64,000 bases of DNA from Sphaerolaimus hirsutus. Taxonomy: Eukaryota > Nematoda > Chromadorea > Monhysterida > Sphaerolaimidae. Both the position numbers and the translations under genes were made by a program. Positions 1 through 62,083 of the stretch are shown piece by piece (the first letter of the stretch is position 1; each line of letters begins with the position of its first letter). Location of the stretch: assembly GCA_964036195.1 (NCBI GenBank), contig OZ038456.1:24529792-24593791 (forward strand), in the 5' to 3' direction. Below the pieces are notes generated by a model. It made no database searches, had not been told where the DNA came from, and saw only the letters and a list, made by a program, of their open reading frames with translations.

Positions 1-1
1 C

Positions 2-538
2 TCCCGCTCGCGTTGCGCCAGAGTCGTGGTGGCCAATGTGGAGACCTTGTTGTGGTCTGACTTCTTCCACATTTTCTTTTCGTATGAATTCGCTTCGGCT
101 GGTCTTTACCAGTACCACGCAGAAAAAATCTGGGGATCCAGGATATGGACCTGGTCGCCCGACTGGAGACCACAGGCCCACTGCCCTGAGCACCAGTACG
201 ACGATGACGACGAAGCCGCCCAGACCGAGCTCGCCCAACCGGACGTCAATATGGACGAGCCCGTGGACGTACAAAACGCGCCCCAGCCGGCGGACGAGCC
301 GCTGCCGTACGACCCCACGGACGAGGTCGAGGACATCGCCAGCACCTCCGATGGCGATGGCGACGACGCCACGTTCTCCGCACCGGAAGAGGAGGCGCCG
401 CTAGCCCCCGACGGCGACATCGAGCCCGATGAGCCCGTGGCGGTCGCCGCGCCGGCGCCGGCTAAAGAGGACGACATGCAGCCCGAGGTTGCTGCCGAAG
501 AAGACGTGCCGATGGAGGGCACCGACGAGGGAGTTTGA
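2..538 (+). pseudogene. Helicase ORF3 3' end carried inside the left LTR
   Basis: The reading frame is the same as codons 1157-1334 of the helicase gene at 12664-16668, with the stop at 536-538. It begins within helicase motif VI (the Arg-rich SRSRCAR segment) and runs into the Asp/Glu/Pro-rich acidic tail. It exists here only because the terminal repeat includes the end of that gene. Whether more helicase sequence lies to the left cannot be seen. Without the ATPase motifs this copy cannot encode a working helicase unless the repeat contains the whole gene. Confidence 0.85.
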
Positions 539-2699
539 GTAAACTCAGGACATTTTTGTTTTGCAAGTTTTTTGAAAGTTTTTGGAAACTAATAACGTAA
601 TGGAAACTATAATCAACAGTGAAACAAACAAAACAATTAACCAAGTATCTCGAAATCACACACCAAATAGTTTCCAAGACGTTCGCTGCGGCACCGAATG
701 GCCGCATTTTGTCCCCCCGAATTGACGAACGTAACCGCCGCCCCCAGTTGACCGTCCAAAATTGGCACTTTTCTGAATAAAAAACAAAGTTTTTTTGCAA
801 ATTTGAAAAGAGCAGAATATTTTTGAAAATGGAAATACCTCCAGAACCCAATTGGCAATTCCATTATAAAGTCACGATTGCAAAAGGCAGGGCAGTTGAT
901 TAACTCCCATACCGTTCTCAGCTTATTATTGCATTTCTGTAGTTGCCAGCCACGTTCGGAATTTGATTTTCGACTGTGAAATACACGCAAGCCATTTTGC
1001 ATGCAAACAACCACTTTTTGAAAATTTCGAAAAGATGAACAACTTTTATATTTAACGAAAAATTTTGTGCATGCAATCGTAAAAATAATCACCGGTCACA
1101 CCTCAATAGTTTAGCCAGGAGGTAAACCGCAATGGCTGGTGGGTTGTAAGAGCGTTTTTACGATGGGAAAAACACCACCCCACAAAATTTTAGACAAACA
1201 AATGCAATAATAATTCACGGAACGTAAACTACTATGTATTTTGTAAACTAAATTTGGGCAAACTTTCTCAGACATTACGGCGGCTTTTCGACGGCAACGG
1301 GGACTGCATGGCATGCACAGCCCTGCAGTGGGCTGCGCAGTACCCCGTCAGAGCACTGCATCGCAAGATCGACGCCGCTACATGGGCTGACCGAGTTCGC
1401 CATGTTTTATAGTGGTTGTAGTGCTCTGCACAATTTCGTTTCCTTACCCCCCAATTTTAATTACTATTTTCGTGCGCCAAATCTATTTAAGTCAATTTAG
1501 CTAGGTTATGTCTAACTTAGGTGTAACTGCATTCCACATGGCATAAGGTGAGAGGGGAATTTCACATTTTTCACTTTGAAATGCCGCGGCGCGGCGTGTG
1601 GCCGCCTTTGGGCTCGCCGGCACACTGTTGTGACTCTCTGGGCGGTCTAAAGCACATTCTACCCTTTACTTACCTGTGGGCAGAGGCGGAGACTGACGGC
1701 TGATAGGTAGGTGGCGACCGGAAGCCAGGAACAATGAATCTCACTCAAAAAATACAAAAGCACTGTTCCGCGTTCCTCCCCATGTTGACTAGATTGTCGT
1801 GCGTCATCTAGTATCGGTGGGTGGTAGGAACAGCTTCTGATAACGCCCCAAGTGACAAGTCGCAGTCCAAAAAATACTTTTCCGCCGCCCTAGCATAAAT
1901 ATCTCCTCGCGCTCGGAAGGGTGTGGCCATCGGGCTGAAACCTTTCTCACGGGCGCTAGCTGACCGGATAGTCACAATAGTGGGTCGCGGGACTGGAGGT
2001 GATAAGCACTCCGCGCCCGCGAGCATTCTCTAGCTACCGTAATTAATGAATACAAAACCCCCAAGCAAAGTTTCCATGTGACATGTAGAAACTATTGTAC
2101 AGATCGTTTCATGCCAATGCCTTTCATTCCCACGAGCTTAATTAATCGTTCTGTATCTTAATTAATTATCATTAGTTGTAAGCTTGTGTTTGCTGTCTAA
2201 TTATTGATTAACTTAAATTGCTGTGTTGGATTATGATGCCGTAATTGCCTTTGTACATACTTTGTTCACTCCGTTTTTGTAAGAATGCGTTGCACTGCAT
2301 TGTTATTTGTTTTGGGTCGCTTTATATTAAGTAGGGATTTATAGGTAATTATGGAAGTGAGTAATTGTTGCACCGAATAAGCTTGTAACTTATAGGCTTA
2401 GCCCCATGTCGCATGAAGCTTTTTAATTACTTTTGTTAGCTGATATTAATTAGTACTCTTTTTATAAGCAGTTGCGTTACGTACGATTTTACTAAGTGCT
2501 TACATCAGAGCTTATGTGATTTGAAAGTGATTTTGTAATTTCGCAATGTTATGTCTTTTTTAGCTTTTCATTCAAGTCGATTATGGTAGTCTTGATCGCC
2601 TTATAAGTAGCTGAAATTGTTTTTTCCTTCAACTTCGTCGATGCGACGTAAGCCAATTTTGCTTCTACTCTGCCGCTACTGTTCTTCCATCGCCCAAAA

Positions 2700-2705
2700 A
2701 ATAAA
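2700..2705 (+). promoter_or_regulatory. Polyadenylation signal in left LTR
   Basis: AATAAA lies in the last 400 bases of the repeat, with the identical copy at 18831-18836. In the right LTR it would serve element transcripts. The signal hexamer is seen; its use is inferred. Confidence 0.5.
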
Positions 2706-3076
2706 CTCTCTTCTCAACCCGACTTGGACCCCTTTTTGTATTGGCACTAAGTACTAACTTTTTCCCTTAGTTAGCTAATTAACAACTGCTCTAATTACTG
2801 CGCTGCTTATGCTGAGTGTAAGTGCTGTGCGTGCTGCGGGAAACGGAACAGCGTGAGCCACCGAGTGGTTCATCGCACGTTCTGAAAAAGCCTACCGTCT
2901 TCGGACACGTTTCCTTAAAATTTACAACACGCATTTATAATCTGGACCTCCGGGCCCAGTGCAGTGCACTGCAGCGGCAAGCGGCCGGTGAAGTGGGAAT
3001 AGAGGGAAAAGTGCGGTAAAAAACCTCGTGAATCGTGTAATCGAAAAACAGCTGAATACACGGATTCATGACAACT

Positions 3077-3086
3077 TGGTAGCAGA
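3077..3086 (+). promoter_or_regulatory. Primer binding site, initiator tRNA-Met type
   Basis: TGGTAGCAGA starts three bases after the LTR end. It is complementary to the 3' ten bases of metazoan initiator tRNA-Met including CCA, after which the match stops. This fixes the element's orientation (+) and the 3' edge of the left LTR. The site would prime minus-strand DNA synthesis. Confidence 0.8.
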
Positions 3087-3182: not shown

Positions 3183-6100
3183 GTGGAAACGCTGCGGTCA
3201 GGAGGGCCAGCGTCGATCCCAGGGTCAGTTGAGGAAGTGTGGAGAGCTGCAGAACAGCTACAGAAGCGCACGCGCCGAGAAGCGGCGTTGCGCAGGGCAC
3301 AGCAGACTGCGGACGCGCAGGACGCTGAGGTTGAACAGGTAAGAGTTGAAGCAGGTGCGCAGGAAGCGGAAGCGGAAGCCGAGCGCGCACAGGAAGCAGC
3401 GACTTGGACCAGACGCACAGAGGATAGCACTCCCGTCGTCCGGCCAGTGCTGCAATTTGGAATTGCACGTGCAGGAACAGGCGGCAGCCGTTGGGATACG
3501 CCGGCTTGCGCGCCAGGTGCGCTACCGACTGGGGCGGCTCGACGAGCGTCCAGTGGAGGCACAGAAACAGAACGCCCACCAGATAGTCCGCTCCTGCGAC
3601 CCGACAGGCCAGTAAGTGCTGAGCCCGGGCGAGAGCAGCGGAAATCAAGTAAGTGGGGTTTATTTCGACGACCGTGGGGAAAAAGCGGCCGTAGCTCCCC
3701 GGTGTCGACAGGGTCTGGATCACAGGCTGATTCAGCAGGGTACGCTGGTGAAGACGAGCCCGTGAGTTCGTCTGCATACCAGCGTAGAAGTGGTGAGACT
3801 TCCGTAAATCTAATTGACACCCCAGTAGCGATCCCAGATATAAATATTGAATTTCCCTCGTTAGCCGAAGAGCTCGAAGAGGCGGAAAATTCATTGGGGG
3901 AGCTTCAATTAAGTGCCCCGCGAAGCTCATCCACACCACGCGAGCTTGCGTCCGCGCAAGGCTCGATTGAAAGCTGTGTCTCTTCGAATAGAGCACGGCG
4001 CAGAATCGTAGGACCGTCTCCCATAAATCAAAGTAGAATGACCAGCACCCCACCCCCAGGTTCGAGTGTGACGACCGCGCCGGCCACGCTCACAACGGTG
4101 ACGACCACCCCGGCGGCGGCCAACCAAGTGACGCCGGGCCAGATCCTGACGGCGGCGACCGCGGCGGACCCGGGCAGGGAAACCACTGGGTACACTAGAG
4201 AAGGTTGGACCTTCCCGGGCATGATACAGCTATTGCACCAGTGGTCTGGGGAACTTAACCGCGCGGGACCAGCGGCGATTTCAGTCAATGCTTCCACAGC
4301 AGATAAAAATAAGCTACAGGCCATTAGGCTAGGTTTAAGTATGTACACCAGCGTAGGTAACCCCAGCGCGCTGGAGCAGGCCACTACTCAATTTTTGGCA
4401 TTTTGTTCTAACAGGGGATTAATTCCACCCATAGCATCGGCAGCTAATGCTACCTTGGGCGCAGGAACGGCCCCTGGGAACACAACCGCGCAGACTGTGC
4501 CCCCGCCGGCGAGTGTAAGCGGATCAGCGGGCGGCAGTGGAGCGGCACCTGCGCCTGCAAACGCTACGGCTCAACCAGCTACCAGTGTAATCAATTTGGC
4601 GGGACAGCCGGGTCCCTCCTCCCCAGGATCGTCAGGATCGCTCTCACCTGCACCTAATCCTACGGATCCAGACTATCTGGCGCAGCACCAGGTGCCGCAC
4701 GGCACGGCCGCTACGCTGACCGCCCTGGCTACGCAGTGCGATGCATTCACTGGAAGGGCTGACAAGAGTTTCAAGGATTGGAGACGTAAGTGGGATATTT
4801 TGTGTGATGCGCTAGGTGTTTCAATGCGCTCTAGGCAAAAGTTGCTGCCTATCTTTTTACAAAAGAATGCCAATTCTATCTTTGTAGCTAGAAGGCGGGA
4901 ACTGCGCGCGCTCGATTACAAAGCCATGATGGATCGTTTGGAAGAATTGTTTGCAAACCCAAACGCCCAGCATCATGCACAGCGCGAGTTTATTGAGTCA
5001 ACTCAAAGTCCCACTGAGTCTGTGCTGGACTGGGCAACTAGATTGGAACGTGCAGTAAAGCGCGCCTATCCAATGCTGCATTCCGCCCAAAGGGAAGGCA
5101 TGTGCATCACTAAGTTTCACCAGGGGTTGGACAAGGACATTAGGCGCAACCTGGCGGTGCACGCCAATATAAGCTGGAAGGAATTAGTTGATAATGCGCG
5201 CATGCAAGAAAGCTACAAAAACCTTGAAACCGTTCAGAAGGAACATGCGAAGTCGGCCAGCGAGATCGTCGCCGAGACGTCGAACCAGGTCATGGAGCGC
5301 ATTATGGCCATGAACCTGCACCCCTCGGTCCAGTCGATGGAGGCAGAGGGTGCCGAGAATGCGAAGCTCAAGGCCAAGGAACGGGCGCTCGACGAACGAC
5401 AGAAAAAACTCGACGCCCAGGAAGCTAAGATGATGGGCGCACCGCGCCCGAGGCGTGAGTTACCGCCCAAAAGGTTTGAAAATGGATGTTGGGAATGTGG
5501 ATCTCCTGATCACTTTCGCTACCAGTGTCCAAATAAGCCCCCTCCCGAGCCATCTGCCGGCAACGATAGCAATCAGCGTGGCCGCGGAGGCGACTTTCGT
5601 GCGCGCGGTAGAGGTGGCGGCCGAGGGCGAGGCCGTGGACAGGGAGGACAATATCCACAAAACTTTGGGTATCCAGGTGGATGGGTACCGATGCAATTAA
5701 GTCAACCTATGACCATGCCTTCCTCGCAGATGATGCAGCCTGTGTACGTCCAGAGCCAGCAGCCCGCGGCAATCGGATGGCACCCACAGCCACAACCGGC
5801 ACAACGGCCGTTGGAATCGCAGCAAGGTCAGAGCAGCAGCGTGCCGCTGTTGAACCCGACGACAGTGACACAGGTGGGTGAATGCACTTACAAGGCCGTG
5901 ACCGAGTCATCGCCGTCTTATGCTAGAATTCTCTTCCATCATGACCAACTATTGACATTGCAAGGGCTGGAACCGGAAGCCCCTGACGAGGAGGAGATGG
6001 AGGAGCAACCTGTAGCTAGCCTTCAGTGTAAAATGCACGCGCTTATGGTAGATAGGGAACAGTGGATTAGCCACTGGGCGTATCAACGCGAAGCCACGTC

Positions 6101-9100
6101 AATCCTATTTCGTACCAGTTGGTTAGATTATCTGCGGCGCACTGCAATGCATGATCTGAAGGATGAAGATTGCGTGGTGCTCCCAGACTGTTGCCCGCAT
6201 GACGACCACAATGACACGCTTACTAGAATCGAGTGGAGGGTTTTGCGTGACGCCCCATTAGACCCATTCCTAAATGAGCCCCCTGTGATTTTGTCCCCGC
6301 GTACGTTTTCGAGCACATGCGTTGATAAAATGGCCGAATTTAGAGACAAAACGTCCGCAGTGCCTCGCCAGCGAGCGTATTCTGAGCCACCGTATAATAA
6401 TCAAGTCTTTGGCGCTTTGTTTACAGTGTTCACCGTCGCCGTGGTGATGGCGTGCTTGAGCTTGATGCCTCTGGCGGTGGCCACGACGATGCCGGACACG
6501 CCACTGCTGTGCAGCGACCTGACCGATCATTACGACTTGTACACCTACCCCGACCTGCCTAACTGCACCGCGTTAGTCGACTCTGCTGTGTCGTTGACTA
6601 AACCGGTTCCCCTGAAACTTACTATTTACAAACGCAATATGGTAGAGTATCGTGCCACTGCGTATCGATGTGTAGCGGCCACGCGGTCGGCTCATACATA
6701 CCAGAACTTCTGGGGTGACGTCACTTTGGAACATTTTGACTCGCAGCCGCGTGCGGTAGATCCCTCGGAGTGTGAGAGCATGATGAAGTACCATAAGTGC
6801 AACGACGGCGCGCTTCAGCCAGTGGACGAGCTGAGCAACGCATGGGACACCCAATACCCGACAAACGTGAGTTACTCGGGGCACGGGCTGTACTGTTGCA
6901 GCTGGTTAATTACCAAGACCCCGCAGTGTGGGTTGTTTAAGGGAGATGTACGCATGCGCTACGGCGCCAAGGTTATGCAAAGTACGTTAGGAGAAGTGTC
7001 AAAGTGTAATTACGAGGAGGGCACCTGTACCCTACCCGACGGTAGCCAATTAGTCTGGAAACCAAACCCCAAGGCTGAATGCCCCTATGAGAAATGGCAA
7101 GAAATAGCTGGGTTAATTAGACAAGATATTTGGCTCGCGCGTGATCACACTTTGGCATTGTCATTTCGAGCAAAAGAAGAAATCATTTCATGTGGTGAAA
7201 AGCTATGGAAATCAGACCAGGATATTGTTGTGGCACCGTTCGAAATCCCCCCAATTAGGTATGTGCGGGAGAAGCGTCGCGCAGCACGCCCCGGATTTGG
7301 CGTAGTGGACACCGGTCACTTGGCCGCAGCGATGCAAGCGGTGTACGAGACATCTGAGCAAACTATGCGTGCACAGGCCGTGTCTACTTGTAGGCATGTG
7401 CAACATTTTCAGGAACTTCTCCGCCTAGCTATGACCGAGCACCCGACGACCACGGCGCGCTGGTACATGCGCGACAATGAGATATTGGCCAAGGCGGCGC
7501 CAGACGGATTTCTAGTGCATAAGTGCTTTGCGGTAAAGACTTATCAGTTGGGCACCGAAACAGGTAAAGGCGCGTGCCACGCTACGGTCCCAATACGAAT
7601 GAAATTACATGGACAGAATGTGACCCTACATTTGGATACAATTACAAATGCCCTTCTGTTCCAGCCGGTTATGGGAACGTGCACAAATCGCCGCAACCGT
7701 GTGTTGAAACTGCATGGGCAGTGGTATAAGTACTTACCTGAGAAAGGCGCCCTGGAACATATCCCCGTTTACAACACCCACAGTTTCCCACACAGGTGGC
7801 AACTCGAACGACCGACGGACGTGCACCATCAGATCTTTGCCGCAACGACAATGTACAATTTGTCTGAACTGCTGCCGACCACCACGCTGAACGACGTGTG
7901 GCACTCATACGCGATTGTGCGGCGCGTGCATGGAATGCCGACGCATGCGGTTGATGGCAGTTTACAATCGCATCGATTAATGGCCAGGTCAATGGTAAGC
8001 GTGGGATTTTGGGATTTTGACGCCTTAAGGTCATGGCTGCAGATATGGATTTACCTGGTGTGCGCCATAGTGACTTGCCAGTATTTATTAGCAGCTCTGT
8101 TAGCCGCCGCGCCCCCGGCAGCTACGACGCTAATTGAACGGGCGCGCCGACGACTGCGACGGGAGTCGAGGCCGCTAATTACCAGACACAGAGACGCAGG
8201 TAAGCGTAGCTTTATGAAAAGCTATGACGGCCGATTGACCGTGTTGAATCCGACAACAGATGCGTCCGAGCGCGCATCAGATGACACGGTAACGGTACAG
8301 ATGTTTCCATCAATTGAATATAATCACCAATTAGAAATGGCGGAAATTTCCATGAGCCCATCGGTGGATAGAATCAGAATGATTACGCTATCAAAAGATG
8401 AACAGGAAAATATAAAGTCTGTCGTCGCGAGGCGGAACGGGCCTGTGCATGTCTACTACAGTCCTGCAGTGCCCGTGTGCATGGACGGCATCATGTACCA
8501 CCGATGTTTGCTGGACACCGGCGCCATGCGCTCGTTATGCAGCAGAGACGTGTTCCAGGAGCATCGACATGGACATGACGCCGTTGAAGAAACTTCTCCC
8601 ATTTCTCACATGCGATGCGCTGCGGATTCCAAGCTAATGATAATTGGTCAGTTGGAAATGCCCATTGATATAGGGGGACACACGTTTCGTGTTGTTTTTC
8701 AAGCCATCGATGGGCTGGTTGACAATTTAATTTTGGGCGCGGACGTGCTGCGGCACATGATAATTGATATGCCCGCGCGCCTCTTAAAAATCCCCTCAGT
8801 AGGCGTCAGCATCCCTTTTGATAACCACAAGCCGGACGTGCAGATTCGGGCAGTGTTTGCATTAGTCACAGCGGCTACCGAAATCAAGGCAAGGCATGAA
8901 GCAATGGTGCCGGTGCGCCTATCAGCTCCAGTTAGCTACCGCACATTTACGGTCACTGGGCTGGAATCCGTAAACTTGAAGGATGGGGTGGTCGCCGCAT
9001 CTGCAGCATATGAAACAAGTGACGAGGTGTTTCTAATGAGGGTCGCAAACGTGCGTGATCAACCGATTACCTTGCAGATGGAACAAAAAATCGGCTTGGT

Positions 9101-9689
9101 TGAGCCCGTCGATTGTGTCCTGAAAGTCAAAGCCGGCGACCCCCCGGAGGAATGGATACGGCAGTGCCGCGCCAACGAAGCAACAGAGCCGGTATCTTCA
9201 AGCGTTCCAGAGAAGGTAATTGAAGACCAATTAGGTGAGCCATTGCATGTGAAATGTCCAGATGGACACGAAATGGAATTTTCTGTGCCCCAAACATTGT
9301 CGGAAAATGAGCGCAAGGAACTTGCAGCCGTACTTTTGAAGCACAAAGGCGCTTTTGCGAGACATAAGTACGACATAGGGTACAGCGAATTAGTCGATTA
9401 TCGACTGCAATTGACCGATCGAAAACCGATTGCGTGCCGCATGTATCGGTTGAGCCTGGATGACCAACAATACTTGGAAAAGCACCTGCGCTGTCTAATT
9501 GAACACGACATAATTGAGACAAGCACAAGCCCATACTGCGCTCCCACATTAGTTGTTTCTAAACCTGATGGTTCTAAACGCATGGTCATTGATTACAGGC
9601 GATTAAATTTGGTTTTGCATGCGCCGCAATTTCCATTGCCGAGGCTGGATGACACCGTGGATGCACTCAGCAACTGCAAGTTTTTTTAG
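3183..9689 (+). CDS. Gag - Env-like glycoprotein - protease - N-terminal RT polyprotein
   Basis: Numbering is from the GTG at 3183 (frame open from 3159). Residues 1-60 are charged and helix-prone. About 500-760 form a Gag capsid-like region, followed by a CX2CX4HX4C zinc knuckle (C769, C772, H777, C782) and an RG-rich patch near 800-835. A hydrophobic signal or membrane segment lies at about 1075-1101, then a Cys-rich ectodomain with NxS/T sites. A furin-like REKR is at 1362-1365, with a Gly/Ala-rich hydrophobic stretch after it. A second membrane helix is near 1618-1642, with an Arg-rich tail. The aspartic protease DTGA is at D1778, its partner ILGAD near 1855. RT starts near 2070. The frame ends at TAG 9687-9689 inside RT. 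The first in-frame ATG is at 4038 (codon 286). Glycoprotein ancestry is unresolved; the Cys pattern hints at a virus-derived glycoprotein (inference). Confidence 0.85.
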   Translation: METLRSGGPASIPGSVEEVWRAAEQLQKRTRREAALRRAQQTADAQDAEVEQVRVEAGAQEAEAEAERAQEAATWTRRTEDSTPVVRPVLQFGIARAGTGGSRWDTPACAPGALPTGAARRASSGGTETERPPDSPLLRPDRPVSAEPGREQRKSSKWGLFRRPWGKSGRSSPVSTGSGSQADSAGYAGEDEPVSSSAYQRRSGETSVNLIDTPVAIPDINIEFPSLAEELEEAENSLGELQLSAPRSSSTPRELASAQGSIESCVSSNRARRRIVGPSPINQSRMTSTPPPGSSVTTAPATLTTVTTTPAAANQVTPGQILTAATAADPGRETTGYTREGWTFPGMIQLLHQWSGELNRAGPAAISVNASTADKNKLQAIRLGLSMYTSVGNPSALEQATTQFLAFCSNRGLIPPIASAANATLGAGTAPGNTTAQTVPPPASVSGSAGGSGAAPAPANATAQPATSVINLAGQPGPSSPGSSGSLSPAPNPTDPDYLAQHQVPHGTAATLTALATQCDAFTGRADKSFKDWRRKWDILCDALGVSMRSRQKLLPIFLQKNANSIFVARRRELRALDYKAMMDRLEELFANPNAQHHAQREFIESTQSPTESVLDWATRLERAVKRAYPMLHSAQREGMCITKFHQGLDKDIRRNLAVHANISWKELVDNARMQESYKNLETVQKEHAKSASEIVAETSNQVMERIMAMNLHPSVQSMEAEGAENAKLKAKERALDERQKKLDAQEAKMMGAPRPRRELPPKRFENGCWECGSPDHFRYQCPNKPPPEPSAGNDSNQRGRGGDFRARGRGGGRGRGRGQGGQYPQNFGYPGGWVPMQLSQPMTMPSSQMMQPVYVQSQQPAAIGWHPQPQPAQRPLESQQGQSSSVPLLNPTTVTQVGECTYKAVTESSPSYARILFHHDQLLTLQGLEPEAPDEEEMEEQPVASLQCKMHALMVDREQWISHWAYQREATSILFRTSWLDYLRRTAMHDLKDEDCVVLPDCCPHDDHNDTLTRIEWRVLRDAPLDPFLNEPPVILSPRTFSSTCVDKMAEFRDKTSAVPRQRAYSEPPYNNQVFGALFTVFTVAVVMACLSLMPLAVATTMPDTPLLCSDLTDHYDLYTYPDLPNCTALVDSAVSLTKPVPLKLTIYKRNMVEYRATAYRCVAATRSAHTYQNFWGDVTLEHFDSQPRAVDPSECESMMKYHKCNDGALQPVDELSNAWDTQYPTNVSYSGHGLYCCSWLITKTPQCGLFKGDVRMRYGAKVMQSTLGEVSKCNYEEGTCTLPDGSQLVWKPNPKAECPYEKWQEIAGLIRQDIWLARDHTLALSFRAKEEIISCGEKLWKSDQDIVVAPFEIPPIRYVREKRRAARPGFGVVDTGHLAAAMQAVYETSEQTMRAQAVSTCRHVQHFQELLRLAMTEHPTTTARWYMRDNEILAKAAPDGFLVHKCFAVKTYQLGTETGKGACHATVPIRMKLHGQNVTLHLDTITNALLFQPVMGTCTNRRNRVLKLHGQWYKYLPEKGALEHIPVYNTHSFPHRWQLERPTDVHHQIFAATTMYNLSELLPTTTLNDVWHSYAIVRRVHGMPTHAVDGSLQSHRLMARSMVSVGFWDFDALRSWLQIWIYLVCAIVTCQYLLAALLAAAPPAATTLIERARRRLRRESRPLITRHRDAGKRSFMKSYDGRLTVLNPTTDASERASDDTVTVQMFPSIEYNHQLEMAEISMSPSVDRIRMITLSKDEQENIKSVVARRNGPVHVYYSPAVPVCMDGIMYHRCLLDTGAMRSLCSRDVFQEHRHGHDAVEETSPISHMRCAADSKLMIIGQLEMPIDIGGHTFRVVFQAIDGLVDNLILGADVLRHMIIDMPARLLKIPSVGVSIPFDNHKPDVQIRAVFALVTAATEIKARHEAMVPVRLSAPVSYRTFTVTGLESVNLKDGVVAASAAYETSDEVFLMRVANVRDQPITLQMEQKIGLVEPVDCVLKVKAGDPPEEWIRQCRANEATEPVSSSVPEKVIEDQLGEPLHVKCPDGHEMEFSVPQTLSENERKELAAVLLKHKGAFARHKYDIGYSELVDYRLQLTDRKPIACRMYRLSLDDQQYLEKHLRCLIEHDIIETSTSPYCAPTLVVSKPDGSKRMVIDYRRLNLVLHAPQFPLPRLDDTVDALSNCKFF

Positions 9690-12402
9690 CAGTGCCGACA
9701 TTAATCAGGCTTTCTATAACATTGCGCTGCATCCCGACGACAGACACATCACTTCGTTCCGTAATATTTTTGGTCAATTCCAATTAAAGAGATTACCTAT
9801 GGGATTAAAATGCTCACCAAGTTTGGCACAAAGGTGTTTTGAGCTTGCAATGGCGGGATTGATTCATCGCAATGTGCTATTGTACATTGACGACCTGCTA
9901 ATTTACAGTCAGGACTGGAAAACCCATTTGAGTGACATCGGCCAAATTTTGGAACGATTGATCAAAAATAACTTCAAAATTAGTCCCCGTAAGTGTTTTT
10001 TCGCACGCATTACCGCAGTAAAATTTCTGGGCTTCATGATCGGCCGCGAGGGCATTTGCATTCCCATGGACAAACGCAATATTATCTCAGAATGGCCCCT
10101 CCCAAAAACAGTCAAGGAAGTCAAAGGGTTTTTGGGCGCAGTGGGATTTTTCAGACGCATGATACACAGATGCGCCGAGATAGCAGTGCCGCTATCGAAT
10201 TTGACACGCACCGGTCCGCGCGAGAACTACGATGGAAACGCGCCGGTAGATCTCAACGACAATCCTGAGGCTCTGAGAGCCTTCTTCCAATTAAAAGAAA
10301 TACTGTTACACAGCCCCTGTTTGCAATACCCGAACCCAAATAAAACGTTCATTGTAATTACAGACGCGTCACAAATTGCGGTCGCTGGAGTGCTGGTGCA
10401 GCGAGCCGACGAAAAATCTGGACTGCATGCGTGCGCGTTCTACAGCCGGAAGTTGACTGAGGTGCAGAGCAGATGGCCCGCCATCACTCTAGAGGCTTAC
10501 GCAATTTTTGAGAGCGTCCGCAATTGGCATTGCTACTTGGCGGGACGCCCCTTTGAAGTGTGGACTGATGCCAAAAGTATCCCTTGGGTGAAGAACCCCA
10601 ATTTGGAGGCTACACCACACGCCGCATTGCATAAGTTTGCATTGGCCATTGCCCCGTATCAAATTACATTCAAGCATTTGAAAGGAAAGTGCAATGAGCT
10701 CGCAGATGCTCTGTCCCGAAGACGCGATGCGCCAATAACTTTCGACGAGAAATTAGAACTTGACGAAGCATTTGAGCAATTTGCACTCATTAAGATATCA
10801 CACAATAAAACTGTCGCGACACAGACCGCAATCGACCCGTGGGATACGGTAGCTACTGTTTCCAGACGCGCGCCCATCAAGGAACCAATGAGGACACGCG
10901 CGCGTGCGAGGGCGGAGTCTGTGGCGCGTGACCGCAACCCTGGGACAATGGACACGCGACAGTCGGCGAACAATGGGGTGGAGCCAATTACCGGACTCAC
11001 TACCGTAGGTCCACAAACAATGGCTGGTGGCCCCGCGGCTACCGAAGTGCGCGTCAACGGTTTTCACACTGATCACGTTTTGCCCCCGTTTGTCCCCATA
11101 ATTGAATTGAAGCGCTTGCAGATGCAAGAAGCGTATATAGTGAATTTGATGGAAGTTTGTAAGGATGCACCTGGACAATGTGTGCCACCGTTTTTCATTG
11201 ATCAATATGGAATCATGCGAAAAAGGGCTGAGGCTTCAATAGTACCGGGGATCAAGTTGTATGATCCTGTGTGTATTCCAGCCTCACTGTGCCCGCTAGT
11301 ATTCGAACTAGCACACAATCATCCTACAGCGGGACATTTGGGAATAATGAAAACGTTCGAAAGATTACAGGAATTTGCGTGGTTCCCAAATATGCGCCCC
11401 GAAAGCGCGCATTGGGTCGCCACGTGCCCTTTGTGTTGTGCGCGAAAAGGACTCAGGCAGTCGATGCAGACTTTGATGGCGTGCCGGAAAATCGCGCGAT
11501 CTCCCGGCGATGTCATCGCAGTCGACGCCGTTGGCCCGCTGCCACGCACGCGGCGCGGGCATAAACACGTGTTGGTTTTCGTTGACCAGTGCACGCGATT
11601 TGGTATCGCTGTTCCGGTACCCGATATCCGGCAGGATACTGTAGCATTTGCATTCTTGCTACACATTCTTCCCATATTTAGCGTACCCGGCGCCATTTTG
11701 AGCGATAACGCGCCAAGCTTTGTCGAAGGGGCATTCAAAAGATTGTTATTGTATTTCAATACCCTTCAGCATCGCTCATTTGCGTATATGCCAAAAGGCA
11801 ACGGAATGGTGGAGCGCCGAAACGGTGTTCTGATGGAAATCGTGTCCCATTACGTGAACCAAACTCATTCCGATTGGGATTACCACTTAGGCGCCGCGGT
11901 GCATGCGTACAATACGTCGAAACACCCGGCAATGGGCACCACGCCGTACGCACTTTTGTTTGGGCGCCCAGCCGCGTCGCTATGGGAAAGAATGTTGACG
12001 CCCCCCGCGCCTGGCGCAATGCTACCCGAGTCGACAGATAAGCACGGTGAACCCACCGAGCTCGCGCAGCGTCTCTCGGCGGCGCGCAATGCGGCGCATA
12101 CCGCGCTTAGGAATGCTCAATTGAAAGAGCAATACTACGCCAATCGCCGCGCCCGCCATTTGAATTTGAAGCCGGGCCAAGCGGTTCGCATTTTCACTCC
12201 GCGCTTGACCGATCAGACCGGCCCTTGTAAAAAATTTGCTGCTTTCTTTTTAGGCCCCTACGAATGCATTCGCTATGCTCATCCGCTTGTAACTATTTAT
12301 AATGATACTAATGATAAGATTTATGTAGTGCATGCGGATCGCTGTAAACCAACGCTTGAAAACATTATCCCCACCTGTACGCAGAATCTCGGCCCTACTT
12401 AG
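9619..12402 (+). CDS. Pol continuation: RT core, RNase H, integrase
   Basis: This frame is shifted by one base relative to the upstream polyprotein and overlaps it by 71 nt. The ATG at 9619 is probably not used, since RT homology passes from the upstream frame into this one at a run of seven T (9681-9687). RT shows YIDD at residues 89-92. RNase H has D249, E292, D317 and the later ADALSR segment. Integrase has an HHCC-type zinc region (AHNHPTAGHLG ... CPLC), catalytic D636, D696 and E732 with 35 residues between the last two, and a C-terminal GPY-type segment (LGPYECIR). The domain order is that of Ty3/gypsy. All catalytic residues I can check are present, so the enzyme looks recently active apart from the frame break. 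Confidence 0.9.
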   Translation: MRRNFHCRGWMTPWMHSATASFFSSADINQAFYNIALHPDDRHITSFRNIFGQFQLKRLPMGLKCSPSLAQRCFELAMAGLIHRNVLLYIDDLLIYSQDWKTHLSDIGQILERLIKNNFKISPRKCFFARITAVKFLGFMIGREGICIPMDKRNIISEWPLPKTVKEVKGFLGAVGFFRRMIHRCAEIAVPLSNLTRTGPRENYDGNAPVDLNDNPEALRAFFQLKEILLHSPCLQYPNPNKTFIVITDASQIAVAGVLVQRADEKSGLHACAFYSRKLTEVQSRWPAITLEAYAIFESVRNWHCYLAGRPFEVWTDAKSIPWVKNPNLEATPHAALHKFALAIAPYQITFKHLKGKCNELADALSRRRDAPITFDEKLELDEAFEQFALIKISHNKTVATQTAIDPWDTVATVSRRAPIKEPMRTRARARAESVARDRNPGTMDTRQSANNGVEPITGLTTVGPQTMAGGPAATEVRVNGFHTDHVLPPFVPIIELKRLQMQEAYIVNLMEVCKDAPGQCVPPFFIDQYGIMRKRAEASIVPGIKLYDPVCIPASLCPLVFELAHNHPTAGHLGIMKTFERLQEFAWFPNMRPESAHWVATCPLCCARKGLRQSMQTLMACRKIARSPGDVIAVDAVGPLPRTRRGHKHVLVFVDQCTRFGIAVPVPDIRQDTVAFAFLLHILPIFSVPGAILSDNAPSFVEGAFKRLLLYFNTLQHRSFAYMPKGNGMVERRNGVLMEIVSHYVNQTHSDWDYHLGAAVHAYNTSKHPAMGTTPYALLFGRPAASLWERMLTPPAPGAMLPESTDKHGEPTELAQRLSAARNAAHTALRNAQLKEQYYANRRARHLNLKPGQAVRIFTPRLTDQTGPCKKFAAFFLGPYECIRYAHPLVTIYNDTNDKIYVVHADRCKPTLENIIPTCTQNLGPT

Positions 12403-12663
12403 ACTCTCATTGCGGTAAAGCCCTTAAGTGGCTATCGACGTAGCCACTGAACAAATTAATTAACTGTGTTCCCGTAATTCGATTAATTCCCTCATCACAT
12501 AAGTTTGACAAACTCGTGATCCTAAGTGCGTGTGACTGCGTGTTCGTGTGTGTGTGAGTGCGGTTGTAATTCGCTGGTACACTAGTGGGCTCCGAGAGTC
12601 CACTGCAGTGCCGGTGATTGATTGTGATTAATTGCACTCTTCCTTAAAACTTAAAAACGTAAC
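12403..12663 (+). other. Spacer between pol and helicase ORF
   Basis: These 261 bases have no convincing ORF. I see no clear polypurine tract here. A GT-rich stretch lies at 12536-12565. It could hold the leader or a splice acceptor for a helicase subgenomic RNA, but nothing decides this. Confidence 0.5.
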
Positions 12664-15600
12664 ATGGCCGGAAGGAGCATGGGCGCCAAACGGCAGCACA
12701 ATGGCCGGCGTGCCAGCGCCGCGGGCTCGGGCTTCACGAAAGCCACCACCCAACGTGGCGAACCGGGCGCCACCATACCGCCCCCCAAGGTGGATCACCA
12801 GTGGGGTGAGAACCAGCGGCCCCCGCCGCCCGTCTACGCGAAGCGGATGTTCGCCGGCTGGGTGGACCGTGTCTATTGGAGGCACGACACTGCAGACCGG
12901 GAATACTACCAAGCCCACGTGCGACTTCACGACGACGCGCTGGCCGAGCTGGCCGAGAACGACGAATGGAACGACGCCGACAACGTGTACCCGTTCTTCA
13001 CCTACTCGACCAACATTGCGCGCGGCGCCCGCGACCGCCGCACGTCGGTCGTGGTGGCGCAGTACGCCAGCGTCAACGAGATGTACGGCCCGGAGCTGCA
13101 CTTGCCGCTTGTCAGACACGGTATGAAGTTTACGGCCAGGTACGTGCAGCGTTGCACTGCCAAGCCCGACTACTGGGAGTTCTTTGACATTAAACTGGAC
13201 ATGAACAAAAGCGCTAGCCCCCTATTGGTGGCAGTGCCCGTCGTCGTAACCGTACAGGGACGCGCCCCGGCCGACCATGAATACGACGCGCAGCGCGACG
13301 AGGTCGGCTACCAGCGCTACTCAACGAACTGGCGGTCGCTGCGGCTGCGAGTGGCGTTCACGCCCCGTCGCTACAAGGAGCTGCCGGAGTTGGGCGCGGG
13401 CGAGCGCAACGACTGCGGCCCGGAGCGCTTGGCGTTCGCGCACCGCGAATACACCATGCCCGGCAACCCGATCCCGAGTGCAGGTATGTTGGGGATTGCA
13501 CACGTCGAGTTTCACGACCTGAACAACGACGTGTTTGACAACGTCTATTACGCACATGCGTATGGCGTTTTCTTGCTCGAAAAATTGGCGCTGGAAGATT
13601 TTTACTTCCACGACCCCCACGAGGTGGAATTGAACCGGGTGCACCCGCCGCACCTGCGCACCAAGTACGTGATGCTGGCCGCAGCATACATGTACCACGA
13701 GTCCTTGTTGCGTTTCCGAGCGGCACGCGCCACGGCGGTGCGCGCGCTAATTGAGTGGGAAGCGACCGACGCAGGTACCAAGGCGTGCATCACGATCAAC
13801 AGGCCGGACCTGGCCGACGCCGTCAACGACGAGCAGGAGCAGATGGACGAGCAGCAGAGGCGCGCGAACGCGCAAATCAACGCGCTACCCCAGCTGCTGG
13901 TCGGCGCCGGACCGATGTCGGTGCTGACGTTGACCAAGGCGATGCCCGACGACGACAGGCCCGACCCGACGCAGCCAAAGTTGCAACTGCGAGTGGCCAC
14001 CTTAGAGGTAAGTCCGGAGCGGGCTGTAATTGTGGGCAATTTGGACTTGAAGTTGAGCCAGGCGGCGCTCCCGTCCGAGCTCGAGAACGGCGACTACATG
14101 GTGCGCACCACCAATGAGTCGCCCAACTATGTGCGAACCATGCGCTCTTTGCAAGGCGCTATCGAGCGCCTGAACGAAGGTTGGAGACCGTCCAACATAC
14201 GCTCGGGCAATGTCCTAAAACTGGGTGACCAGATCGCCATTGCCATTGTGTATGATGATCGGTTGTCCGACACGTTCACCCAGTGGTCGCACATCCGCGC
14301 CACGGCCGCGCCCCTAGAAGACGAAATCCGTCAGGGCACGTCCGAAGCGCTGCTGGTAAGTAAGCCCGGCGAGTTCAAGCCGTTGGGCGGCCAGGCGAAA
14401 ACCCTGGCGGCCGTTTTAGCCGCCTTGAAGCTGGCGTGGCCGCTGTTGCTCATGTGCGACTCCCCGTTCGGCACTGGCAAGACCACTGTGCAGAACCAGG
14501 TGGCGTACATGTGCTCGTTGTACTTCAACCAGTTTAATGGTCGCCCATTCCCAGACAGTAATTCCACCCTTTCCTCCGACATCACTTCCAACGCCAAGTA
14601 CCACTCCACCATCGTCACGTGCACCGTCAACTCGGCGACGGACGAGAGCGCTAGGCGCGCTGTGCAAAACATGCAGCGCACCGGCTGCGACGGCGTGCAC
14701 GATGCCGTGCGCCGCCTGCTGCTGGGCCGCAAGCAGTGGTCCGAACTGCCCGCCGCACAAGTTAAGGACATGCTGCAAGAGCCCGGGTACGTCGAATATT
14801 TAAAATTGAGAGCGGCGTTCGCTGTAAGGGTGCTGAGCCCCCTGTTGGAAACCCAGGAGGTCTACAGCGACCTCGCTGTAGACGACCTGCCCGCGCTGCA
14901 CAAAATAGCGCAGGACACCCCTTTCTCGGTCGCGCGGATCGACGCCCAGTGGATAGAGCTGGTAGACCAGTACTGGGCGGTGAAAACTGAGTACGAGACC
15001 GTGCACTCTATCGTCGCAGGTCCCAATCAAACCCCCCAGCAGGTGATGAAGGCGCTAATGGAGAAGGTGCCGCACCTGGTCGTCACTGGCGAGGACGACG
15101 ACGAAGAATGGGACGACGACAACGACGAGGTCGTAGCGGGTCGCACGGGCGTCGATGTGAGCGACCCGGACCTCGAGGACACGGACTGGGGCCGCGTGCT
15201 GCGCAGGGCCGCCCGGAGGTACGCCAAGGGCACCGTCAAGCTGCACAAGTACGTTCTGGATTTGCTGCAGCCAGGACAGATCCACGTGACTGTCGATTCG
15301 ACACATGATGTGCGCATCAAGCACATCAGGTACTGTGCCATGATAGTGGACGAGGCGTCGCTCGCCACGAACATTTCCATGGTCACAGCGTTGAACCCCG
15401 TGTCGCTCCCCCACAACGGCTTAGTCTTGCTGTTCGGCGACAGCAAGCAACTCACCCGCAAAGTTCAGACCCAGCGATGGGTTGAACCCTTCCTTAATCC
15501 CTCTCCATCCTTGATTGATGGACTCACAGCGTCCAAAATGTGCCCCCTACTGCGGCTGGAAACGGTTTTCCGCGGGCACCCCCAGCTGATCAACGCCAAT

Positions 15601-16668
15601 TCGCACGCGGCGTACGAGGGCCGGCTCCGCCCCTATCATCAGAAATCGCCGTGCCGGGACGACAACTTGCCGCGCATGCCGGGCGACAACGTCCCGATCC
15701 CGCTGTCTACGGTCATCAACCACACCGGACTGGAGACCAAGGAGGGCACGTCGACCGTCAACGTACCCGAGCAGCTCATCGTAGTGCAGTTGGTTAAACA
15801 TTTTGTCGAATTGGCGAACCAGGGCGGCGTGCCCTGGAGTGATTTGAGTCGGGCGGATGCCATTTTGGTGGTCACTTTTTATGCGGCGCAGCAGCGCGCG
15901 CTGATCGACAAATTGGCAACCGACCCGTCGTTGAAGCACTACGGGCGAGAATTCTGGGCGACTCGAGTGCTCACCGCCGACAAAGCGCAAGCCAGAGAAG
16001 CTGAGGTGACCATCGTGTCGTGCGTGCGCAGCAGCGAGCCGCCCGCGCGCGACAGGTTGACCACCCAGTATTCTCAGCAGACCACTCGAGTCGGCTTCGT
16101 GGCCCAGCTGGAGCGTGGAAACGTGGCCACCTCCCGCTCGCGTTGCGCCAGAGTCGTGGTGGCCAATGTGGAGACCTTGTTGTGGTCTGACTTCTTCCAC
16201 ATTTTCTTTTCGTATGAATTCGCTTCGGCTGGTCTTTACCAGTACCACGCAGAAAAAATCTGGGGATCCAGGATATGGACCTGGTCGCCCGACTGGAGAC
16301 CACAGGCCCACTGCCCTGAGCACCAGTACGACGATGACGACGAAGCCGCCCAGACCGAGCTCGCCCAACCGGACGTCAATATGGACGAGCCCGTGGACGT
16401 ACAAAACGCGCCCCAGCCGGCGGACGAGCCGCTGCCGTACGACCCCACGGACGAGGTCGAGGACATCGCCAGCACCTCCGATGGCGATGGCGACGACGCC
16501 ACGTTCTCCGCACCGGAAGAGGAGGCGCCGCTAGCCCCCGACGGCGACATCGAGCCCGATGAGCCCGTGGCGGTCGCCGCGCCGGCGCCGGCTAAAGAGG
16601 ACGACATGCAGCCCGAGGTTGCTGCCGAAGAAGACGTGCCGATGGAGGGCACCGACGAGGGAGTTTGA
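12664..16668 (+). CDS. UPF1-like superfamily 1 helicase (element ORF3)
   Basis: 1334 codons with a genuine ATG in good context (AAC ATG G). Motif I is GTGKT at 603-607 (K606). Motif II is VDEAS with D896/E897. Motif III is GDSKQL at 925-930. Motif IV is FRGHPQL near 963. A motif V-like segment (TADKAQAREAEVTIVS) lies near 1103-1118 and a motif VI-like Arg segment (SRSRCAR) at 1157-1163. This order is that of UPF1/SF1B helicases (AAA_11/AAA_12 type), not the Pif1 helicase of Helitrons. Residues 1-590 are not recognised. The tail after about 1215 is strongly acidic and probably disordered. The gene runs into the right LTR. A helicase is not a standard Ty3/gypsy component. It could unwind RNA or cDNA, or counter host RNA decay (speculation). 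Confidence 0.85.
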   Translation: MAGRSMGAKRQHNGRRASAAGSGFTKATTQRGEPGATIPPPKVDHQWGENQRPPPPVYAKRMFAGWVDRVYWRHDTADREYYQAHVRLHDDALAELAENDEWNDADNVYPFFTYSTNIARGARDRRTSVVVAQYASVNEMYGPELHLPLVRHGMKFTARYVQRCTAKPDYWEFFDIKLDMNKSASPLLVAVPVVVTVQGRAPADHEYDAQRDEVGYQRYSTNWRSLRLRVAFTPRRYKELPELGAGERNDCGPERLAFAHREYTMPGNPIPSAGMLGIAHVEFHDLNNDVFDNVYYAHAYGVFLLEKLALEDFYFHDPHEVELNRVHPPHLRTKYVMLAAAYMYHESLLRFRAARATAVRALIEWEATDAGTKACITINRPDLADAVNDEQEQMDEQQRRANAQINALPQLLVGAGPMSVLTLTKAMPDDDRPDPTQPKLQLRVATLEVSPERAVIVGNLDLKLSQAALPSELENGDYMVRTTNESPNYVRTMRSLQGAIERLNEGWRPSNIRSGNVLKLGDQIAIAIVYDDRLSDTFTQWSHIRATAAPLEDEIRQGTSEALLVSKPGEFKPLGGQAKTLAAVLAALKLAWPLLLMCDSPFGTGKTTVQNQVAYMCSLYFNQFNGRPFPDSNSTLSSDITSNAKYHSTIVTCTVNSATDESARRAVQNMQRTGCDGVHDAVRRLLLGRKQWSELPAAQVKDMLQEPGYVEYLKLRAAFAVRVLSPLLETQEVYSDLAVDDLPALHKIAQDTPFSVARIDAQWIELVDQYWAVKTEYETVHSIVAGPNQTPQQVMKALMEKVPHLVVTGEDDDEEWDDDNDEVVAGRTGVDVSDPDLEDTDWGRVLRRAARRYAKGTVKLHKYVLDLLQPGQIHVTVDSTHDVRIKHIRYCAMIVDEASLATNISMVTALNPVSLPHNGLVLLFGDSKQLTRKVQTQRWVEPFLNPSPSLIDGLTASKMCPLLRLETVFRGHPQLINANSHAAYEGRLRPYHQKSPCRDDNLPRMPGDNVPIPLSTVINHTGLETKEGTSTVNVPEQLIVVQLVKHFVELANQGGVPWSDLSRADAILVVTFYAAQQRALIDKLATDPSLKHYGREFWATRVLTADKAQAREAEVTIVSCVRSSEPPARDRLTTQYSQQTTRVGFVAQLERGNVATSRSRCARVVVANVETLLWSDFFHIFFSYEFASAGLYQYHAEKIWGSRIWTWSPDWRPQAHCPEHQYDDDDEAAQTELAQPDVNMDEPVDVQNAPQPADEPLPYDPTDEVEDIASTSDGDGDDATFSAPEEEAPLAPDGDIEPDEPVAVAAPAPAKEDDMQPEVAAEEDVPMEGTDEGV

Positions 16669-19204
16669 GTAAACTCAGGACATTTTTGTTTTGCAAGTTT
16701 TTTGAAAGTTTTTGGAAACTAATAACGTAATGGAAACTATAATCAACAGTGAAACAAACAAAACAATTAACCAAGTATCTCGAAATCACACACCAAATAG
16801 TTTCCAAGACGTTCGCTGCGGCACCGAATGGCCGCATTTTGTCCCCCCGAATTGACGAACGTAACCGCCGCCCCCAGTTGACCGTCCAAAATTGGCACTT
16901 TTCTGAATAAAAAACAAAGTTTTTTTGCAAATTTGAAAAGAGCAGAATAATTTTGAAAATGGAAATACCTCCAGAACCCAATTGGCAATTCCATTATAAA
17001 GTCACGACTGCAAAAGGCAGGGCAGTTGATTAACTCCCATACCGTTCTCAGCTTATTATTGCATTTCTGTAGTTGCCAGCCACGTTTCGGAATTTGATTT
17101 TCGACTGTGAAATACACGCAAGCCATTTTGCATGCAAACAACCACTTTTTGAAAATTTCGAAAAGATGAACAACTTTTATATTTAACGAAAAATTTTGTG
17201 CATGCAATCGTAAAAATAATCACCGGTCACACCTCAATAGTTTAGCCAGGAGGTAAACCGCAATGGCTGGTGGGTTGTAAGAGCGTTTTTACGATGGGAA
17301 AAACACCACCCCACAAAATTTTAGACAAACAAATGCAATAATAATTCACGGAACGTAAACTACTATGTATTTTGTAAACTAAATTTGGGCAAACTTTCTC
17401 AGACATTACGGCGGCTTTTCGACGGCAACGGGGACTGCATGGCATGCACAGCCCTGCAGTGGGCTGCGCAGTACCCCGTCAGAGCACTGCATCGCAAGAT
17501 CGACGCCGCTACATGGGCTGACCGAGTTCGCCATGTTTTATAGTGGTTGTAGTGCTCTGCACAATTTCGTTTCCTTACCCCCCAATTTTAATTACTATTT
17601 TCGTGCGCCAAATCTATTTAAGTCAATTTAGCTAGGTTATGTCTAACTTAGGTGTAACTGCATTCCACATGGCATAAGGTGAGAGGGGAATTTCACATTT
17701 TTCACTTTGAAATGCCGCGGCGCGGCGTGTGGCCGCCTTTGGGCTCGCCGGCACACTGTTGTGACTCTCTGGGCGGTCTAAAGCACATTCTACCCTTTAC
17801 TTACCTGTGGGCAGAGGCGGAGACTGACGGCTGATAGGTAGGTGGCGACCGGAAGCCAGGAACAATGAATCTCACTCAAAAAATACAAAAGCACTGTTCC
17901 GCGTTCCTCCCCATGTTGACTAGATTGTCGTGCGTCATCTAGTATCGGTGGGTGGTAGGAACAGCTTCTGATAACGCCCCAAGTGACAAGTCGCAGTCCA
18001 AAAAATACTTTTCCGCCGCCCTAGCATAAATATCTCCTCGCGCTCGGAAGGGTGTGGCCATCGGGCTGAAACCTTTCTCACGGGCGCTAGCTGACCGGAT
18101 AGTCACAATAGTGGGTCGCGGGACTGGAGGTGATAAGCACTCCGCGCCCGCGAGCATTCTCTAGCTACCGTAATTAATGAATACAAAACCCCCAAGCAAA
18201 GTTTCCATGTGACATGTAGAAACTATTGTACAGATCGTTTCATGCCAATGCCTTTCATTCCCACGAGCTTAATTAATCGTTCTGTATCTTAATTAATTAT
18301 CATTAGTTGTAAGCTTGTGTTTGCTGTCTAATTATTGATTAACTTAAATTGCTGTGTTGGATTATGATGCCGTAATTGCCTTTGTACATACTTTGTTCAC
18401 TCCGTTTTTGTAAGAATGCGTTGCACTGCATTGTTATTTGTTTTGGGTCGCTTTATATTAAGTAGGGATTTATAGGTAATTATGGAAGTGAGTAATTGTT
18501 GCACCGAATAAGCTTGTAACTTATAGGCTTAGCCCCATGTCGCATGAAGCTTTTTAATTACTTTTGTTAGCTGATATTAATTAGTACTCTTTTTATAAGC
18601 AGTTGCGTTACGTACGATTTTACTAAGTGCTTACATCAGAGCTTATGTGATTTGAAAGTGATTTTGTAATTTCGCAATGTTATGTCTTTTTTAGCTTTTC
18701 ATTCAAGTCGATTATGGTAGTCTTGATCGCCTTATAAGTAGCTGAAATTGTTTTTTCCTTCAACTTCGTCGATGCGACGTAAGCCAATTTTGCTTCTACT
18801 CTGCCGCTACTGTTCTTCCATCGCCCAAAAAATAAACTCTCTTCTCAACCCGACTTGGACCCCTTTTTGTATTGGCACTAAGTACTAACTTTTTCCCTTA
18901 GTTAGCTAATTAACAACTGCTCTAATTACTGCGCTGCTTATGCTGAGTGTAAGTGCTGTGCGTGCTGCGGGAAACGGAACAGCGTGAGCCACCGAGTGGT
19001 TCATCGCACGTTCTGAAAAAGCCTACCGTCTTCGGACACGTTTCCTTAAAATTTACAACACGCATTTATAATCTGGACCTCCGGGCCCAGTGCAGTGCAC
19101 TGCAGCGGCAAGCGGCCGGTGAAGTGGGAATAGAGGGAAAAGTGCGGTAAAAAACCTCGTGAATCGTGTAATCGAAAAACAGCTGAATACACGGATTCAT
19201 GACA
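16131..19204 (+). repeat. Right LTR (minimum extent)
   Basis: Near-identical to 1-3073, ending in gaca at 19204. The start given is only where the window's left copy begins; the real LTR may start further left inside the helicase gene or before it. It contains helicase codons from motif VI to the stop at 16668, then about 2.5 kb of noncoding sequence with AATAAA at 18831-18836. Its end lies about 680 bases upstream of the first predicted exon of the + strand host gene. Confidence 0.9.
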
Positions 19205-45951: not shown

Positions 45952-46026
45952 GGACTAATCCTATTGCCGAGAGCGTACAAGTAACGAGAAAAGTTGCTAC
46001 CGTATTTTCTCGAATTAACCCAGGGG

Positions 46027-61575: not shown

Positions 61576-61667
61576 CTGCCACTGTAACTCTTAGCCTGAT
61601 AATCATACAGCCAATACTGATTGTGGAACTTTGTCTTCGAGCACTGTTCCTCAAATCTTGTTGATAC
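61576..61667 (-). CDS. Host gene 3 exon m1
   Basis: The acceptor is AACACACAG and the donor TGGCAG|GTGGGT. It leaves in phase 2, encoding VSTRFEEQCSKTKFHNQYWL and ten more residues. Upstream exons are not seen; the next + coordinates hold the gypsy remnant. Confidence 0.6.
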
Positions 61668-61876: not shown

Positions 61877-62083
61877 CTAGTTCCTGGGGACGGACACTAA
61901 TCTACTGATTATGGCGCGTGCCTGCGCCATGTAAAAGCACATAATTAGTAAACTAGCTGGATCAGCCAGGTCCGTCCAGGGCAGAGTGGGATCCGCCTGG
62001 ATGGCAGCCACAAAGTAGTCGTTCAGGTGCATGATGATGTCCTGCTCGGTCACGTTGATGATGGACATGCCCTCTTTGATGGA
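61877..62083 (-). pseudogene. Helicase fragment of a decayed gypsy relative
   Basis: About 65 codons align with helicase ORF3 residues just after motif IV. Shared landmarks are KEG.S.(I/V)NV.EQ, PW.DL and a TFYAAQ-like CFYMAQARAIISRL. The fragment starts abruptly after the glycoprotein remnant at about 62084, which implies a deletion of everything between. Confidence 0.75.

Follow-up and report, generated by a model that had tools for sequence, protein, structure and literature searches.

A giant Ty3/gypsy provirus of the nematode Sphaerolaimus hirsutus and the UPF1-like helicase that it probably encodes

How does a helicase resembling UPF1 come to lie directly behind the integrase of a retroelement, does it belong to that element, and what could it be doing there? 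These questions are raised by a stretch of 64,000 nucleotides from the nematode Sphaerolaimus hirsutus (GenBank assembly GCA_964036195.1, contig OZ038456.1, forward-strand positions 24,529,792 to 24,593,791), hereafter the window, in whose numbering all coordinates are given. An earlier, sequence-only reading had proposed that a Ty3/gypsy element in this window encodes a UPF1-like superfamily 1 (SF1) helicase, and our analysis points the same way: a giant Ty3/gypsy provirus, 19.2 kb or more in length and equipped with Gag, an envelope-like protein in frame with it, protease, reverse transcriptase (RT), RNase H and integrase, appears to encode its own UPF1-like SF1 RNA/DNA helicase. The best overall explanation, which we consider probable, is that this element-encoded enzyme acts as a translocase on element RNA. 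It is generally believed that the export, packaging and reverse transcription of retroelement and retroviral RNA draw on helicases of the host, and that RNA surveillance acts against such elements; an element-borne UPF1-type helicase, if truly such, would allow help or hindrance to retroelement RNA to be tested with one protein.

The helicase open reading frame (ORF3) is complete, as had been claimed; its start codon stands in the context AACATGG and opens a frame of 1334 codons that ends at a stop (Table 1), and three-base periodicity is strong along it (53-89 in seven segments, vs 1-11 in six flanking ones). The predicted set of SF1 motifs, blocks I to VI, can be read from the sequence between residues 603 and 1160, and family searches agree. 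Of the two Pfam families that had been suggested for checking, AAA_12 matched residues 949-1169 (E 2.8e-23; 83 bits, cut-off 27), and AAA_11 fell below its cut-off, both with the whole protein (E 5e-5) and, narrowly, with the core piece (E 8e-6, 26.2 bits, cut-off 27). Among the sequences of solved structures, the nearest to the core is UPF1 (E 4e-6 to 5e-5), followed by three entries named "5'-3' RNA helicase-like protein" (8ftm, 8ftk and 8fth, which we take to be fungal Sen1), weaker than UPF1 at E 4e-4 to 2e-3 and confined to residues 853-1177, and then by yeast NAM7, with which the protein likewise shares the SF1 core. The UPF1-type identity is thus borne out by both the AAA_12 match and the nearest solved protein. 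An NCBIfam model of the IGHMBP2 family reached 41 bits, far below its cut-off of 349; PHROGs gave one weak match, function not known, at E 3e-5; and no viral replicase helicase appeared among the Pfam or solved-structure matches, all of which are of UPF1 type or general AAA families. Judged on sequence, the core matches and motif blocks taken together are far beyond chance.

Resemblance to UPF1 ends with the core. UPF1 itself carries a Cys/His-rich zinc domain ahead of the core and an SQ-rich tail behind it. The nematode protein differs at both ends: its first 545 residues contain 3 cysteines and match no Pfam family, so the Cys/His domain is absent, and beyond residue 1177 there is neither SQ nor TQ, the last 140 residues (1195-1334) forming instead a long acidic tail with 42 acidic and 4 basic residues. 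These features do not fit a UPF1 orthologue. An AlphaFold model of the core alone, with a mean predicted local distance difference test score of 35.5, was not used.

Does this gene belong to the retroelement? Bases 1-3073 of the window are repeated at 16131-19204 with 99.9% identity (2 mismatches and 1 indel), a period of 16.1 kb that sets the minimum length of the provirus, and the long terminal repeat (LTR) measures at least 3074 bp, its 5' copy continuing past the left end of the window. The sequence-only reading had placed the helicase between integrase and the 3' LTR; the gene does follow integrase, but it also runs at least 538 bases into the LTR, so that at least its last 178 codons, a stretch that begins inside motif VI and includes the stop, lie inside the repeat. 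The first 538 bases of the 3' LTR as delimited encode this C-terminal part, and bases 1-538 of the 5' LTR repeat it identically. At its 3' end the LTR closes with CA, and a primer-binding-site-like sequence, TGGTAGCAGA, follows, which would pair with the 3' terminus of the initiator tRNA-Met of animals. Neither Rfam, at gathering scores, nor a tRNA scan found a match in the window.

One could suppose, on the other hand, that a host helicase gene merely sits beside a retroelement and that both were copied together, through tandem duplication or a fault of the assembly, the overlap with the LTR being only apparent. This idea can draw on the 5' edge of the repeat, which falls outside the window, and on the failure to find a polypurine tract or an LTR start. 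It has to contend with a right edge that ends in CA with the primer-binding-site-like sequence within 3 bases, with two mismatches and an indel that speak against a plain assembly copy, and with a diverged LTR fragment elsewhere in the window that ends at the same place (to the left of this fragment no similarity is shown, the local score being 49 where the best of 30 shuffles reached 53). A diverged second copy in which the envelope adjoins the helicase already makes the idea unlikely, and we regard it as very improbable.

This second copy, on the minus strand near the right end of the window, matches ORF1 residues 954-1612 at 63996-62082 (tblastn identity 60, 68 and 57% in three main pieces and 47-50% in a fourth) and, directly after the envelope, helicase residues 1022-1088 at 62089-61886 (40% identity, E 1.8e-10). 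A search of this region found no protease, RT or integrase and nothing of the helicase ahead of that piece, which gives it the look of a deletion copy; each of the four envelope pieces contains one stop codon and the helicase piece none. As the same envelope is followed by the same helicase, the helicase was most likely already present in the common ancestor of the two copies. Such an ancestor would be old, since the envelope comparison shows saturation at synonymous sites: over the 569 codons used (of 572 aligned, less 3 that contain stops, and with the fourth piece left aside), the proportion of synonymous differences (pS) is 0.84 and that of nonsynonymous differences (pN) 0.25, giving a pN/pS of 0.30 vs 1.15 and 1.71 in two shifted frames. 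Third-position G+C tells a similar story. In the first copy it is 0.80 in the helicase (0.73 in the matching stretch) vs 0.54-0.59 in its neighbours, in the second 0.71 (68 codons) vs 0.45-0.50, and a shift common to both is more readily explained by a single old acquisition than by two recent events. The claim that the helicase belongs to the element is therefore upheld, by the LTR overlap and by the second copy; we hold it to be almost certainly a part of the element, and seemingly a long-standing one, and the proposal that helicase-bearing elements form a distinct lineage is plausible.

Could the helicase be a mere passenger, captured at some time, without a role today and slowly decaying? 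Indeed, the piece shared by the two copies is more diverged than the main envelope pieces (40% vs 57-68% identity), and its pN/pS of 0.65 has a bootstrap range of 0.46-0.95, vs 0.92 and 1.42 in the two shifted frames, such that purifying selection on the 67 shared codons is weakly supported. Against decay stand 1334 stop-free codons with all motif blocks and strong periodicity, and the retention of the helicase since before the copies split, as the saturated envelope indicates. We find a passenger quite improbable.

The remainder of the provirus is that of a Ty3/gypsy element, as the sequence-only reading held, with Ty3 being the nearest solved protein of ORF2 in the PDB (E 1.8e-53). Pfam recognised RT_RNaseH_2 (4.6e-28), RVT_1 (4.3e-22) and Integrase_H2C2 (5e-15) in ORF2, and rve at 1.6e-7 (32.0 bits, slightly below the cut-off of 32.6); in the protein database 39 proteins reached E <= 1e-3 among 7999 scored, the best by E-value (P0006) at 27% identity over 93% of the query, with up to 34% over shorter stretches. 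The order protease, RT, RNase H, integrase that is typical of Metaviridae is present over ORF1 and ORF2, with the protease, which has a DTGA motif, and rve below their Pfam cut-offs. The RT itself changes frame within the overlap of the two ORFs (9607-9689): its first part, for which Pfam gave no RT match in so short a piece, is 43% identical to P0006 across 82 residues, ending at residue 306 of the latter, and ORF2 resumes the same protein from residue 303. This split may be a programmed frameshift, if at an uncommon site, or the result of damage.

Upstream of the protease, ORF1 carries Gag and an envelope-like glycoprotein in a single frame. Neither this glycoprotein nor the divided RT figured in the sequence-only reading. 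The Gag matches (PNMA 6e-4, or 3e-5 for the piece; Retrotrans_gag 7e-4; zf-CCHC 0.009) are all below curated cut-offs, as are those of the protease (gag-asp_proteas, E 0.004; Asp_protease_2, 0.023). Monjiviricetes_fusion matched the envelope piece at E 1.2e-7 (30.6 bits vs a cut-off of 27) and reached 26.4 bits within the whole of ORF1; hydropathy places hydrophobic segments at both ends of this region, near residues 1074-1100 and 1618-1645, and sequences of solved structures offered no match up to E 10. Among the 7 Pfam families found in ORF1 up to E 1 there were no BIR, BCL2, MATH or like domains. How ORF1 is started is curious: its first in-frame ATG is residue 286 (base 4038), leaving 285 codons without one (3183-4040), and there is no ATG between the LTR end and the opening of the frame. 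An ATG with a GTAAGT stretch after it does occur in the LTR (2809-2825), and splicing from it could, as a speculation, provide the start.

Table 1. Features of the helicase-bearing provirus and of related sequences in the window; motif positions are residues of ORF3.
Feature	Position	Strand	Basis
5' LTR, cut by window start, 3073 bases visible	1..3073	+	99.9% identity to 16131-19204
Primer-binding-site-like TGGTAGCAGA, 3 bases past LTR end	3077..3086	+	read directly
ORF1, 2168 codons: Gag, envelope-like, protease, first part of RT	3183..9689	+	Pfam and reading
Gag capsid region and CCHC knuckle	4755..5534	+	residues 525-628 and 768-784, Pfam
Envelope-like glycoprotein, in frame between Gag and protease	6393..8117	+	Pfam Monjiviricetes_fusion, hydropathy
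Retropepsin-like protease, LLDTGA	8469..8756	+	motif read directly, weak Pfam
RT N-terminal part in ORF1 frame	9441..9686	+	identity to P0006
ORF2: rest of RT, RNase H, integrase (H2C2, rve)	9619..12402	+	Pfam, Ty3 in PDB
Leader between pol and helicase, no ATG	12403..12663	+	shuffle test
ORF3, UPF1-like SF1 helicase, 1334 aa	12664..16668	+	motif blocks 603-1160, acidic tail 1195-1334
Motif I, GTGKT	residue 603		read from sequence
Motif II, VDEAS	residue 895		read from sequence
Motif III, GDSKQ(L)	residue 925		read from sequence
Motif IV-type, RGHPQL	residue 970		read from sequence
Motif V, QAREAEV	residue 1109		read from sequence
Motif VI, NVATSRSR	residues 1153-1160		read from sequence
3' LTR, visible minimum, ends ...ATGACA	16131..19204	+	repeat comparison
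Diverged LTR fragment, same family, split by insertion	22573-23143 and 36611-37186	+	70% and 75% nucleotide identity
Second copy, diverged, broken: envelope region then helicase	61886..63996	-	tblastn

How would such a helicase be made? We posit that it could be translated from a separate message, starting in or near the leader that follows pol and ending within U3 of the 3' LTR. The leader has no ATG in its 261 bases, vs a mean of 4.6 in 2000 single-base shuffles (P 0.0095), although the absence of ATG was noticed first and the shuffle test made after. Polyadenylation-type AATAAA sites occur at 776 of the 5' LTR copy, which is 16906 in the 3' copy and about 240 bases past the helicase stop, and at 2700 of the visible LTR, or 18831 in the 3' copy; a separate message ending in U3, together with a genomic RNA ending further on, would fit these two sites. 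Overlap with the 3' LTR is also known from some accessory genes of retroviruses, which the proposed message would resemble in this.

As to its action, we envisage an active translocase that would clear the long RNA of the element itself of proteins or structure, and we lean towards element RNA as its substrate. UPF1-dependent decay is drawn to RNAs with a long region behind the stop codon, and a genomic RNA ending near the second AATAAA would have some 6.4 kb downstream of the pol stop; the element RNA thus fits the known triggers of this decay. A core of UPF1 type that lacks the regulatory regions could act as a competitor of host UPF1 or clear it from the RNA, and the use that we prefer would be to keep element RNA intact and available for packaging and cDNA synthesis. 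That escape from decay is the main purpose of the helicase is nevertheless doubtful in our eyes. A fuller scenario can be offered only tentatively: perhaps a giant, envelope-bearing lineage took up a helicase of the RNA-surveillance type long ago, placed its coding end in the LTR, and uses it as an unregulated UPF1-like decoy or remodeller that blunts host decay of element RNA.

Other roles deserve consideration. Would a genome of at least 19 kb not benefit from a helicase that rides with the particle, aiding RT along the template or strand displacement during cDNA synthesis? The giant genome and the position of the helicase gene next to integrase are in keeping with such a replication helper, and viral SF1 enzymes are described as able to unwind RNA-DNA duplexes in the available part of one source (PMC5563155). 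Yet the helicase is a separate ORF of different codon composition, outside Gag-Pol, and the giant elements Ogre and Burro are described without a helicase in the accessible sections of another (PMC6431247); we deem this role rather unlikely. Alternatively, the enzyme could suppress silencing by unwinding double-stranded RNA or displacing small-RNA complexes, shielding the element from RNA interference or the PIWI-interacting RNA pathway. A role of this kind has been proposed for the virus-derived SF1 helicases of insect long interspersed nuclear elements (LINEs), again going by the available part of the paper (PMC5563155); those helicases are of viral replicase type, whereas the one considered here is UPF1-like, and silencing suppression appears unlikely.

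Regardless of which role is favoured, several observations weigh against our preferred explanation of an element-encoded translocase acting on element RNA, the most general being that helicase function and expression are both deduced from sequence. Motif I, which sits almost 300 residues ahead of motif II, is assigned by motif alone and lies outside the displayed profile and structure alignments, which start near residues 853-892 (the solved-structure match spans 853-1177); the Walker-A sequence reads SPFGTGKT, with its first glycine replaced; and motif V is QARE, where human UPF1 has QGRE in the solved-structure alignment. For these three reasons it is likely, but not certain, that the ORF3 product is an active ATPase/helicase. 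Residues 560-1200 of the helicase had no protein-database match at E <= 1e-3 among 7995 scored candidates, in a search that required shared five-residue words and by estimate misses relatives below about 35-40% identity, and the envelope piece had none among 7658 candidates. Viral contigs searched with the helicase, ORF2 and the envelope likewise yielded no confirmed relatives. The helicase piece shared by the two copies, on which selection was gauged, is only 67 codons long. Neither the 5' edge of the LTR nor a target-site duplication (4-6 bp in Ty3/gypsy elements) is seen in the window, and no convincing LTR start (TGT) or polypurine tract occurs between about 12300 and 16135. Lastly, with its RT split over two frames, this copy may be unable to move.

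The surroundings of the provirus hold further features. The diverged LTR fragment is interrupted by a LINE-like insertion on the minus strand (23327-36493), with endonuclease and RT in 2405 open codons and three more long ORFs (887, 701 and 184 aa) that have no convincing Pfam match; stretches of these ORFs look intron-like by eye, though stop-free, and their periodicity is weaker than that of the helicase. Dense short repeats of the TTTGACACTTTACAGGGCATTTTACATGAC and CATACCTCCAAAATAATG types occupy 45485-45981 and 37771-38009. Just past the broken second copy, a possible host exon bounded by AG and GT lies at 61576-61668 on the minus strand.

Is there precedent for a retroelement with a helicase of its own? 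Among the matches listed in a literature search, mostly outside subscription papers, no UPF1-like helicase was reported in a Ty3/gypsy element. A parallel in kind is found in insect LINEs (TRAS and Jockey-like) with virus-derived SF1 helicase domains, to which two Ty1/Copia fusions are added in the part of the study available (PMC5563155). They too are retrotransposons with an added SF1 helicase, whose motifs are intact in the LINEs; unlike the element described here, they are not Ty3/gypsy, their helicase is of the plus-strand RNA virus replicase type rather than UPF1-like, and the same excerpts mention neither envelope nor LTR overlap for them. Our helicase is set apart from those of TRAS and Jockey by family matches, not by direct comparison. 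A different parallel comes from orchids, where a giant Ty3/gypsy element (25 kbp) has an extra ORF for an RNA-acting enzyme, an AlkB-type RNA demethylase, which its authors suggest could act on the element's own or on cellular RNA, as far as the accessible text goes (PMC9289625); there the host is a plant and the enzyme a demethylase, not a helicase. In what is available of the Troyka paper, the word helicase is not used (PMC12440569).

In overall architecture the provirus is like the planarian element Burro, for which the available portion of its description gives Gypsy-type pol, giant size, a typical Gag with zinc knuckle and accessory coding capacity, together with an envelope-like region, similar to mononegavirus fusion glycoproteins, in frame between gag and pol, a gag-env-pol order in one frame that was presented as the first case (PMC6431247). 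This order is present here as well, with Gag, Monjiviricetes_fusion and protease matches in the single frame of ORF1. The two differ in polyprotein length, Burro ORF1 having 4873-5140 aa vs 2168 + 927 here, and are likened by description, not by sequence; they differ too in their accessory parts, those named for Burro in the same portion being AIR1, Smc, MATH, BIR, BCL2, ankyrin, SUMO-like, dUTPase and midasin-like, with no helicase (PMC6431247). The sections available of a planarian genome paper from 2024 contain a single mention of Burro and none of a helicase (PMC11410931). One more giant Gypsy element with so unusual an arrangement, now in a nematode, would suggest that the gag-env-pol order is not a planarian oddity.

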